Translations under genes and position numbers: made by a program
Part shown: positions 4,838-34,886 of the stretch, in pieces
Position numbering within the stretch: the stretch's first letter is position 1
How the letters are laid out: the number at the start of each line of letters is the position of its first letter
NCBI GenBank assembly: GCA_015654985.1
Contig: JAATFW010000343.1
Coordinates: 1 to 37,216, forward strand
Reading direction: 5' to 3'
DNA from: Sphingobacteriales bacterium
GTDB taxonomy: Bacteria > Bacteroidota > Bacteroidia > Sphingobacteriales > Sphingobacteriaceae
DNA: 37,216 nucleotides
The notes under the pieces: generated by a model
The model's input: only the letters and a program-made list of their open reading frames with translations
Told to the model about the DNA's origin: nothing
Database searches by the model: none

Positions 4838-4845
4838 TAACTTCG
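4838..4845 (+). promoter_or_regulatory. Candidate -7 box (TAACTTCG) directly before lutB
   Basis: TAACTTCG is a one-mismatch version of TAnnTTTG and ends exactly 4 nt before the lutB ATG. Transcription from it would give a leaderless or nearly leaderless mRNA. There is no TTTG/TTG at the expected -33 distance. The same 4-nt spacing occurs at gatA and rlmN. Confidence 0.35.
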
Positions 4846-4849
4846 CTAT

Positions 4850-6228
4850 ATGACAAAATTTGCTGAGGATTTTCAGGGAGCGGCAGAAGAGAAAGCATTT
4901 GATTTAGACCACCGTCGTATTATAAATTTTAATATCGGAAGGTATCATACTGCTGTAGAGCGGGGTTTGTCGAAACTTGCGACTCTGGAGGCCTCCAAAA
5001 GAAAGGCACATGCCATTAAATGGAAGGTGATGGAGAACCTGGATAAGCTGTTACCGGAGTTTGAAGCAAATTTTCAGAAGAGGGGTGGTAAAGTAATCTG
5101 GGCGAATGATGCGGAGGAGGCTAACGACGAAATTCTGAAGATCATCCGTAAAGCTCATGCAAAAACTGTTATAAAATCGAAGTCGATGACTACGGAAGAA
5201 ATTCATCTGAATGAATTTCTCGGGGAGCACCAGATAGAATCTGTAGAAAGTGATCTTGGCGAGTATATTGTGCAATTGCTGGGACAGAAACCTTATCATA
5301 TTGTAACTCCGGCCATGCATCTCAGTAAAGAGGACATCGCCAGGCTGTTCCACGAAAAGTTTGGTACTGCGCCAGACTCCACACCCGAACAGCTAACTCT
5401 TAAAGCAAGAGAGCTGCTGCGCGAAAAGTACACTACGGCAGACGTAGGCATCACCGGCGGTAATTTTCTTATTGCTGATACGGGCAGTATTGCATTGACT
5501 GAAAATGAAGGGAATGCACGGCTCTCTACTACCTTCCCTAAAATTCATATTGCTATAGTTGGAATTGAAAAATTAATCCCTTCCGTTACAGATCTCGACC
5601 TGTTCTGGCCGCTTCTGGCTACACATGGCACTGGTCAGAATCTTACTGTATATAACACTATTCTTGGAGGCCCGCGGCAGCCTGGGGAAACCGATGGTCC
5701 GGAGGAAATGTATGAATCCTGCTGGATAACGGACGTACTGACCTGCTTGCCCAAAAAGAGCAACGTCAGGGATTGTATTGTATCCGGTGTGGAGCTTGTT
5801 TAAATGCCTGCCCTGTTTATAAAAATATAGGTGGCCATACTTATCAAACTACGTATAGCGGCCCTATAGGTTCTGTCATAACTCCTCATTTCAGGGGGAT
5901 GGAAGAATTTAAACATCTTAGTTACGCTTCGAGCCTTTGCGGCAAGTGTACTGAAGTTTGCCCTGTTAAAATAGATATTCATAAAATGCTTCTGCTAAAC
6001 CGGCGCGACGCTGTTTCTGAAGGACTGGCGTCCAAAGCGGAAAAGCTGGGATGGCTGGGCTGGAAACGGGGGATGCTTAAAAGAAGTCTGATGGACTTTG
6101 TGGGCGGCAAGATGAAAAACTTCCTGATGAGGACTTTCTTTAGGAAAAGCTGGGGGAAATACCGGGAAATGCCTGAAGTTGCTGAGAAATCATTCAGTAA
6201 ACTGTGGAAGGAAGGGAAGAGGTTGTAA
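4850..6228 (+). pseudogene. lutB: LutB-type lactate-utilisation iron-sulfur protein, interrupted by a -1 frameshift
   Basis: LutB belongs to the LutABC complex that oxidises L-lactate to pyruvate. It carries a LUD domain and a ferredoxin-like region with two [4Fe-4S] sites. The track shows two ORFs (4850-5803 and 5773-6228). The first carries the LUD domain (for example TADVGITGGNFLIADTGSI), then runs into nonsense (CWITDVLTCL) after residue 289. The second begins with a TTG and carries CIRCGACLNACP and CGKCTEVCP. Switching frame after the GAA codon at 5714-5716, so that the next codon is read from 5716, gives ILLDNGRTDLLAQ and then the cluster motif. That is the expected LutB junction. Rejoined, the protein is about 459 residues, a normal LutB length. 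One missing base explains the split; it may be a real mutation or a sequencing error. lutA and lutC are not adjacent. Confidence 0.9.
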
Positions 6229-24103: not shown

Positions 24104-25537
24104 TTACCGGCCTTTTGTTACATCCATCAGATATTTTGAAAAAGCAAGCAGTTCGTTCTCTCCAAATCGTTTTCCGATCAATTGAATTCCTAACGGTAAA
24201 TTTTTACTGTTATTGTCCAGCGGAAGCGAAATTGCGGGGATTCCGGCAAGAGAAGCCTGTACCGTGAATATATCCGCAAGATACATTACTACCGGGTCAT
24301 CGGTTTTTTCTCCCAATCCAAAAGCGGGACCGGGTGAAGTAGGCAGTAAAATGAAATCATGATAGCTCAGGATCTCTTCAGTTTTATTACGGATTAGCCG
24401 CCTAACTCTCTGTGCCTTATCATAAAAAGCATCGTAATGCCCTGAACTTAATACAAAAGTTCCAAGCAGGATGCGACGCTTTACCTCTGTTCCGAAACCT
24501 TCAGATCGGGATTTCTTATAAGTAGATTCAAGGTCGGTGGCATTATCGCTTCGGTAACCGTAATGCACCCCGTCGTATCTTGCCAGGTTAGAGGAGGCCT
24601 CTGCCATGGTAAGAATGTAGTAGGTTGGAACTACATAATCGAGGTACGGAAAAGAAACCGGCTCTACAGTGTGCCCCTCGTCCTGTAATTTTTTTATGGT
24701 GGCCTCCATAAGCGCCTTCACTTCCGGATCAAGGCCTTCACTTTCCAGCGTTTCGGGAAGATATGCAATCCTCTTTTTGCCGCTGACATTAAGGTGCTGC
24801 GAGTAGGCCGGCACCGGCAACGTTGAAGAAGTACTGTCGTATTCGTCCTTTCCTGCAATAACTTCCATGATTATGGCGGCATCTTCTACAGAGGTAGTAA
24901 GAGGCCCCACCTGATCAAATGATGATGCGTAGGCTACAATGCCATGGCGTGATACTCTTCCATAAGTGGGTTTTAAGCCAACAACTCCGCAAAAAGAGGC
25001 GGGCTGGCGCACAGATCCGCCTGTATCAGTTCCGAGAGCTGCCATACATAATCCCGCCTGCACGGCAACGGCAGAACCACCGGAAGAACCACCGGAAACT
25101 TTTGTATTATCGGCATAGTTTTTTACGGGTCCAAACCAGGAATTTTCGTTAGAGCCCCCCATAGCAAATTCATCACAGTTCAGCCTTCCTATAATAATAG
25201 CATCTTCTGCAAGTAAACGTTCTACAACAGTAGATGAGAATATCGATTTATAATTTTCAAGAATTTTAGAACCTGCAGAAATGTGGTGATCCCGGTAACA
25301 TATTAAATCCTTTATACCAATGATCAGGCCTGCGAGCCTGCCCGCTTTTTTCCGGCTGATTTTATCCTGAATTTCTGCTGCACGCTGTAATGCCTCATTC
25401 TCATAGACTTCAATAAATGCATTCAGATATCTGTGGGCTTTAATACGTTCAAGATATTCTTCAACAAGATTCTTTAAATTCAACCTGCCTTCTTTTATTC
25501 CAGCCTGTACTGTATTTAGGGAAGAATGATGTTCCAT
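24104..25537 (-). CDS. gatA: Asp-tRNA(Asn)/Glu-tRNA(Gln) amidotransferase subunit A
   Basis: GatA is the amidase subunit of GatCAB, which makes Gln-tRNA(Gln) and Asn-tRNA(Asn) by transamidation. The ATG at 25537 (477 residues) is preferred over the track's 25552, because it follows the promoter directly and gives the usual GatA start. The amidase signature residues are all present: catalytic Lys in IIGIKDLICY (about residue 76), cis-Ser in KVSGGSSGGSAVAVQAG and nucleophile Ser in GTDTGGSVRQPASF. YGRVSRHGIVAYASSFDQVG and RRILLGTFVLSSGHYDAFYD are GatA-specific. gatB and gatC are elsewhere. The upstream tatA terminator isolates this gene from the tat operon. Confidence 0.97.
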   Translation of the reverse strand: MEHHSSLNTVQAGIKEGRLNLKNLVEEYLERIKAHRYLNAFIEVYENEALQRAAEIQDKISRKKAGRLAGLIIGIKDLICYRDHHISAGSKILENYKSIFSSTVVERLLAEDAIIIGRLNCDEFAMGGSNENSWFGPVKNYADNTKVSGGSSGGSAVAVQAGLCMAALGTDTGGSVRQPASFCGVVGLKPTYGRVSRHGIVAYASSFDQVGPLTTSVEDAAIIMEVIAGKDEYDSTSSTLPVPAYSQHLNVSGKKRIAYLPETLESEGLDPEVKALMEATIKKLQDEGHTVEPVSFPYLDYVVPTYYILTMAEASSNLARYDGVHYGYRSDNATDLESTYKKSRSEGFGTEVKRRILLGTFVLSSGHYDAFYDKAQRVRRLIRNKTEEILSYHDFILLPTSPGPAFGLGEKTDDPVVMYLADIFTVQASLAGIPAISLPLDNNSKNLPLGIQLIGKRFGENELLAFSKYLMDVTKGR

Positions 25538-25541
25538 GGCG

Positions 25542-25549
25542 TGAAGGTA
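25542..25549 (-). promoter_or_regulatory. Candidate -7 box (TACCTTCA) directly before gatA
   Basis: Read on the minus strand, TACCTTCA ends exactly 4 nt before the gatA ATG. Nineteen bp further upstream is the T-run of the tatA terminator (25568-25572), which could serve as a weak -33 element. Because the terminator closes only 30 bp before gatA, the gatA promoter must lie in this short gap. Confidence 0.4.
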
Positions 25550-25832: not shown

Positions 25833-26108
25833 TTATGAATTTATATGTGATTGTTCCGTTTCATTTTGCTGCGGATCAGACGGTTTACTGTCGGAATCTA
25901 CGTCCAGGTCGTCCTTTACAGCATTGATGTTGCGATGAATTTCCTGTTTGACCCCTTCGGAAGCATCTTTAAATTCCCGAATACCCTTACCCAGTCCTCT
26001 GGCTAATTCCGGTAGTTTTTTGCCCCCAAATAACAGCAGAATGGCAAATAATATTACCATTGTTTCGGGTGCTCCCATATTTAGAAATAAAAATAGTGAA
26101 TTCAGCAT
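25833..26108 (-). CDS. tatA: TatA/TatB-like translocase subunit (longer paralogue)
   Basis: This 91-residue paralogue has the same layout: MGAPETMVILFAILLLFGGK, KLPELARGLGKGIREFKDAS, then a longer acidic tail (DDLDVDSDSKPSDPQQNETE). Both copies have a helix starting with GAPE, where the Glu is a polar residue of the kind found in TatA and TatB. Bacteroidota usually lack a canonical TatB, so division of labour between the two copies is possible but unproven. The gene is the first of the pair and has a TAnnTTTG box 31 bp upstream. Confidence 0.92.
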   Translation of the reverse strand: MLNSLFLFLNMGAPETMVILFAILLLFGGKKLPELARGLGKGIREFKDASEGVKQEIHRNINAVKDDLDVDSDSKPSDPQQNETEQSHINS

Positions 26109-27443: not shown

Positions 27444-27496
27444 GGATGCAAACTTAGATAAAATTATTTTCACAAGGAATCAATCTGCATAATCTG

Positions 27497-33821: not shown

Positions 33822-33829
33822 TATCTTTG
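33822..33829 (+). promoter_or_regulatory. -7 box (TATCTTTG) directly before rlmN
   Basis: TATCTTTG matches TAnnTTTG exactly and is identical to the feoA -7 box. It ends 4 nt before the GTG start, so the mRNA would have no usable leader. No TTTG lies 19-20 bp upstream. Confidence 0.5.
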
Positions 33830-33833
33830 CGCT

Positions 33834-34886
33834 GTGAATGAGGTTGTTGAAAAAAAAGAGATAAGGAATCTATCCACGGAAGATTTAAAGAAATTTTTAG
33901 CTGAAGAAGGAGAGCCTGCTTTCAGGGCCAGACAGATCTCCGAGTGGCTCTGGATGAAGGCGGCAGCAGATTTTGATGAAATGAGCAACCTGTCTAAAGC
34001 CTTCAGGGAAAAGCTGAAAGACAGGTTTACATTAAATGTTGCCACGATTTACCAGTCGCAGTTCAGTTCTGATAAAACCATAAAGAATACATTTAAACTT
34101 GCCGACGGAAACATTATTGAGGGTGTACTTATTCCCGCACCCGAGCGTATGACTGCCTGTGTAAGTTCTCAGGTAGGATGCAGCCTGACCTGTAAGTTCT
34201 GTGCAACAGGATATATGGAGCGCAAGCGTAACCTTGATCCCGGAGAAATTTACGATCAGGTAGTACTTATAGACCGGCAGGCACGGCAGAACTATGGAAT
34301 TCCCCTGTCGAATATTGTATATATGGGAATGGGTGAGCCTCTTCTTAATTATGCAAATGTTTTGAAATCTATAGACAGGCTTACTTCTCCCGATGGCTTG
34401 AATATGGCTGCAAAGAGAATCACGGTATCAACAGCAGGCATCGCAAAGATGATCAGGAAACTGGGCGATGACCAGGTGAAGTTTAATCTTGCTCTTTCCC
34501 TTCATGCGGCAAATGATGAGAAGAGGAATGAAATTATGCCTGTAAACGAGCAGAATTCATTAAAGGCGCTTGCCGAAGCATTAAAATATTATTTTATAAA
34601 AACCAGGAATCCTGTTACCTACGAGTATATACTTTTCGATAACTTCAACGATGATTTGCAGGATGCTGCCGAACTGGCGAAGTTCTGTAAGCATTTACCC
34701 TGCAAAGTAAATATTATTGAATATAATCCGATCTCTTTTGCTTCTTTTCAAAATGCAGGAGAAGATAAGACAGAAGCATTTGCAGAGTATTTACGGAAGC
34801 AGGGTATCATAACCAATATCAGGCGCAGCAGAGGGAAGGACATAGATGCTGCCTGCGGGCAGCTTGCAATAAAAGAAAAGGCCTGA
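33834..34886 (+). CDS. rlmN: Dual-specificity 23S rRNA/tRNA (adenine-C2)-methyltransferase
   Basis: RlmN is a radical-SAM enzyme that methylates C2 of A2503 in 23S rRNA and A37 in some tRNAs. The 350-residue protein has the cluster motif CSLTCKFC (Cys116, Cys120, Cys123), the catalytic Cys109 in MTACVSSQVG and the methyl-carrying Cys341 in DIDAACGQLA. YMGMGEPLLNYANV and the N-terminal accessory domain (TEDLKKFLAEEGEPAFRARQ) are intact. The GTG at 33834 is chosen because the next in-frame Met (residue 41) would remove the conserved N-terminal domain. It lies only 4 nt after a -7 box, and comF follows 25 bp downstream. Confidence 0.97.
   Translation: MNEVVEKKEIRNLSTEDLKKFLAEEGEPAFRARQISEWLWMKAAADFDEMSNLSKAFREKLKDRFTLNVATIYQSQFSSDKTIKNTFKLADGNIIEGVLIPAPERMTACVSSQVGCSLTCKFCATGYMERKRNLDPGEIYDQVVLIDRQARQNYGIPLSNIVYMGMGEPLLNYANVLKSIDRLTSPDGLNMAAKRITVSTAGIAKMIRKLGDDQVKFNLALSLHAANDEKRNEIMPVNEQNSLKALAEALKYYFIKTRNPVTYEYILFDNFNDDLQDAAELAKFCKHLPCKVNIIEYNPISFASFQNAGEDKTEAFAEYLRKQGIITNIRRSRGKDIDAACGQLAIKEKA

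Follow-up and report, generated by a model that had tools for sequence, protein, structure and literature searches.

Three genes of the stretch of Sphingobacteriales DNA analysed here (37,216 nt, hereafter the window), namely rlmN, lutB and a gatA-like amidase gene, are in all likelihood preceded by promoters placed to give leaderless mRNAs. The three sites would be promoters of sigma-ABfr, the housekeeping sigma factor of the Bacteroidota, with its -7 box (TAnnTTTG and TTC[G/A] variants) positioned at the start codon and RNA polymerase initiating on that codon or one base into it. The mRNAs would then lack a 5' leader, with ribosomes beginning on a 5'-terminal GTG or ATG. The activity of the promoters, the precise start of transcription and the leaderless mode of translation are predictions from the sequence; an excess of boxes at 4 nt genome-wide, conservation at rlmN and the finding that close relatives share the gatA box support them. 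We propose that the sites belong to a class widespread in the family, that of promoters giving leaders of zero to three nt.

Three -7 boxes at 4 nt from the start codon

The rlmN gene (33834..34886, plus strand) starts with GTG, and the box TATCTTTG (33822..33829, plus strand), an exact match to TAnnTTTG, is separated from it by the 4-nt spacer cgct (33830..33833). The gene is divergent from its upstream neighbour, and the 341 nt between the two hold a single strict box, the one 4 nt before the GTG. In lutB (5' part, 4850..5803, plus strand) the variant box TAACTTCG (4838..4845) is followed by ctat and the ATG at 4850, while the gatA-like gene (24104..25537, minus strand) has the variant box TACCTTCA (25542..25549), then cgcc and the ATG at 25537. 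Both variants are of the TTCG/TTCA type. The three arrangements are exactly those of the original prediction; note that start codons in this organism are computed calls.

In Flavobacterium johnsoniae, many -7 elements upstream of predicted transcription starts sit 4 or 5 nt from that start (PMC6847099). A gap of 4 nt would therefore correspond to an mRNA beginning at the start codon's first or second base; for rlmN this predicts that transcription starts at 33834 or 33835.

Distances between -7 boxes and start codons

For the home genome (G000), a draft of 4.73 Mb in 355 contigs and 88% complete, 1.70 Mb was covered, with 1291 genes from a simple coding-statistics caller. Here the TANNTTTG boxes numbered 0-1 per position at 0-3 nt from the start codon, jumped at 4 nt, remained raised through 7 nt, dropped and then rose a second time at 17-23 nt; the reversed-box control gave no peak. 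Many contigs had been selected for containing TANNTTTGNNNNATG, which inflates the 4-nt bin for ATG starts; we countered this bias with non-ATG starts, TTC[AG] boxes, a 52-species set and whole-genome counts. Non-ATG starts, which had no part in the contig choice, showed six boxes at 4 nt and none at 5-7 nt, and the TTC[AG] boxes also peaked at 4 nt (five boxes). The strictly sequential subset (C1-34), which is small, held three boxes at 4 nt and 0-3 at other positions. As expected of promoters, none of the 280 genes that follow another gene of the same strand at under 30 nt had the 4-nt box. TANNTTTGNNNNATG occurs at 97 sites in the home genome, compared to 60 for the reversed pattern; about 36 of the 97 coincide with called gene starts, and gene starts therefore explain the excess.

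An independent, unbiased sample consisted of 52 Sphingobacteriaceae loci fetched around rlmN, in which each gene family was counted once. TANNTTTG stood at 4 nt in 12 gene families, compared to none for the reversed-box control. By distance, 17 gene families had the box at 4-7 nt, 5 at 8-16 nt, 27 at 17-25 nt and 16 at 26-40 nt, and boxes at 4-7 nt thus make up about a quarter (17/65 gene-family counts) of those within 40 nt of a start. The earlier statement that the short gap is not a window-wide habit is too narrow given this share and should be softened; leadered genes form the other main class. TTC[AG] boxes in the relatives were found at 4 nt in five gene families and at 0-3 nt in none. 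As a side observation, the TTC[AG] variants were relatively commoner at 4 nt than at leadered distances in loci L213-L264: the ratio of 4-nt to leadered gene families was 5:3 for TTC[AG] and 12:41 for TTTG, the latter from a per-position count of families (Fisher p ~0.03).

A genome-wide check of box-to-start distances had been named beforehand, and it revealed the 4-nt excess both in the home family and across 23 others. In 60 whole genomes the strong box TAHCTTTGC followed by ATG was counted at fixed gaps. The home family had 397 occurrences at 4 nt, against 141, 234, 124 and 134 at 3, 5, 12 and 19 nt, and the 23 other families had 215, against 34, 106, 58 and 96, respectively. More sites lay at 4 nt than at 3 nt in 35 of the 36 informative genomes of the family and in 22 of 23 from other families. 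Since these counts take in ATGs that are not starts, the real contrast is probably larger.

A box whose position is fixed relative to the start codon might instead be a translation-initiation or mRNA signal, with transcription coming from farther upstream, and the envC-like genes that carry the box within an operon would fit this. We consider it highly improbable, however, as the box is identical to the mapped sigma-ABfr box, the second hump at 17-25 nt upstream is what leadered genes would give, the 280 operon-like genes of the home genome lack the 4-nt box, and the region 5' of rlmN offers no second strict box.

Conservation of the rlmN layout

Among the 78 distinct rlmN orthologues of at least 70% identity, the box lies at exactly 4 nt in 49, mostly with GTG, and at 5-7 nt in 21, so that 70 of 78 have it 4-7 nt upstream of the start; in four it is farther away and four have no box. 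At 60-70% identity (Cytophagales and others) the corresponding numbers were 15/41 at 4 nt and 6/41 at 5-7 nt, and over all orthologues of at least 60% identity the gap is exactly 4 nt in 64 of 119. Examples from Hymenobacter, Pontibacter, Marinoscillum and Adhaeribacter retain the 4-nt layout, and in Pedobacter the gap is mostly 6 nt. The closest named RlmN found was that of Arcticibacter pallidicorallinus (88% identity). The start codon in the 4-nt layout is GTG in 45 of 65 distinct orthologues and ATG in the other 20; for comparison, GTG and TTG together account for only ~8% of the called starts in the home genome (92/1104).

The upstream profile was built from sequences selected by the box, which fixes the box positions. 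It showed moderate conservation of an A/T stretch from -20 to -16 and of a G at -13, and beyond -21 most positions are little conserved. Near -33 a TTTG was absent, with only weak A-rich positions there besides the A/T stretch; the -33 TTTG element is not evident in F. johnsoniae either (PMC6847099).

The boxes could also be true promoters of genes whose start codons are mis-called, translation beginning at a later in-frame codon of a leadered mRNA. Start calls do depend on coding statistics and homology, yet a GTG or ATG stands at exactly 4 nt in the 65 distinct rlmN orthologues just mentioned, rlmN alignments often start at one of the first few codons, and the distance peak is sharp at a single position and gone one base nearer. 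This explanation, too, is highly improbable. We are very confident that the rlmN mRNA would be leaderless or nearly so. The predicted leaderless layout is very probably old and maintained, and it is conserved across most of the Sphingobacteriaceae. That selection keeps rlmN leaderless throughout this family, and recurrently in the Cytophagales, is an unlikely proposition.

lutB, gatA and other genes of the window

The lutB box is patchy: TAACTTCG, TACCTTCG, TAAGTTTG, TAAATTTG or TATCTTTG stands at 4 nt in several family members, and the box is lost in three genomes (G001, G003 and G005) in which lutB appears directly 3' of the M61 gene. In general, lutB might be transcribed from the upstream M61 gene. 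The lutB frame of the window is broken near 5770, leaving a 317-aa ORF with the remainder in another frame (5773-6228), and relatives have a single ORF of ~463 aa; the break is either an assembly error or a pseudogene. The gatA box, as TACCTTCA or TATTTTCA with the 4-nt gap, was found in the genus and in two further genera and is absent from more distant relatives. The T-to-C variant boxes of both genes could be weak. Their mRNAs are probably leaderless or nearly so, and it is highly likely that their layout is younger than that of rlmN, or labile. lutB is the weakest of the three cases.

Two boxes of the window had been missed earlier. One, TAAGTTTG (27449..27456, minus strand), is a -7-like box 5 nt from the ATG (27443) of an envC-like gene, and the other is a variant box, TAAATTCA (25836..25843, minus strand), 5 nt from the ATG (25830) of a tatA-like gene. 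In the homologous envC-like family, boxes at 4-5 nt recur in the sampled Sphingobacteriaceae loci, despite the gene directly following a same-strand gene in these relatives. The box described 9 nt before the M61 gene holds if translation starts at the ATG at 2911; the alternative ORF start, at 2857, has none. The ordinary gaps reported for maeB, gcvH and feoA stand for maeB (24 nt) and gcvH (14 nt), and the feoA region has TATCTTTG upstream.

To our knowledge, Shine-Dalgarno pairing is not used by the Bacteroidota, and Shine-Dalgarno sequences are rare throughout the phylum. On reading the sequence, no AGGAG-like stretch was seen at 20 nt or less from the rlmN, lutB and gatA starts, which carries little weight because of that rarity.

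The reversed box GTTTNNAT gives a background of ~1 per position per 1115 genes. Taking the chance rate of the loose box, TANNTT[TC][GA], as ~4 times that of the reversed box, ~0.1 cases at 4 nt would be expected by chance among the ~27 genes of the window, where three were seen. The sample is small, only three genes from a single window, and the boxes of two are imperfect. Chance spacing with selective reading is nevertheless the least probable explanation, given the conservation at rlmN and at gatA/lutB and the excess in 60 genomes; for rlmN, the conservation already excludes it.

Other genes of the 4-nt class

In relatives, hisS has the box at 4 nt in 13/30 cases and at 4-7 nt in 21/30, and pth keeps the 4-nt gap in 6/30. 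We had considered rlmN as a unique case and rejected this, hisS being similarly conserved and pth much less so. The class includes the translation genes argS, hisS, tilS, def, pth, rluD-like, queG and arfB. Enrichment of such genes was likewise rejected (~11/53, compared to ~12/60 in leadered controls), and the NCBIfam names assigned to 50 genes of the 4-nt class and to 60 leadered genes revealed no special functional theme. The class seems to consist of ordinary housekeeping promoters whose location happens to be the start codon; some genes, above all rlmN and hisS, look to have kept the layout over long times.

The 1.70 Mb of home genome also contains ~17-20 copies of an element with a constant loop, CATATAAAA, and short self-complementary arms, followed by TTATCTAAGTTTG. 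The arms vary among copies (AACTTG/CAAGTT, AAATTC/GAATTT, TAAAAT/ATTTTA), and six copies put the TTATCTAAGTTTG box exactly 4 nt from an ATG (argS, tilS, def and others). Copies lie at L059:390-430, L054:12460-12500, L042:14300-14340, L024:3150-3190, L007:13588-13630(-) and C178:39940-39990. The 52 other Sphingobacteriaceae loci gave a single weak match.

Discussion

Leaderless mRNAs of the Bacteroidota are already known as a minority. In B. thetaiotaomicron ~3.7% of 5' UTRs are shorter than 10 nt (PMC7366714), leaderless mRNAs account for 5.5% in F. psychrophilum (PMC9723704), and in F. johnsoniae 13% of leaders are of 10 nt or less and 87% are longer (PMC6847099). This mapped leaderless or short-leader minority (3.7-13% in two flavobacteria and B. 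thetaiotaomicron) speaks against the reading proposed here. The Sphingobacteriaceae cases share with the mapped ones the phylum, the -7 box and a start, here predicted, on the start codon or directly beside it. They differ in that the mapped cases are experimental minorities, whereas ours are predicted from sequence, with an apparently larger share of nearby boxes and gene-specific conservation at rlmN and hisS.

The leaderless genes known from Actinobacteria and Deinococcus-Thermus, where they make up a larger share of genes (group averages of 19% and 39%, respectively), also have a promoter box at fixed distance directly 5' of the start, in their case a Pribnow-type -10 box instead of the sigma-ABfr -7 box found here (PMC3160421). 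The same survey detected a leaderless signal in 1/37 Bacteroidetes/Chlorobi genomes; by its authors' own account it was limited to Pribnow-like boxes (PMC3160421).

In the literature searched, we found no paper connecting rlmN to leaderless mRNA and none on leaderless mRNAs in the Sphingobacteriaceae, nor a conserved predicted-leaderless rlmN or hisS. In the unlikely case that selection keeps rlmN leaderless, RlmN, the methylase of 23S rRNA A2503 and tRNA A37, would be made via leaderless initiation, which would couple its level to the condition of the ribosome pool. A box followed by 4 nt would be a start-site signal usable by gene finders in the Bacteroidota. Finally, a conserved, sequence-defined leaderless set with both GTG and ATG starts would make the leaderless contribution to start-codon choice in the Bacteroidota directly testable.
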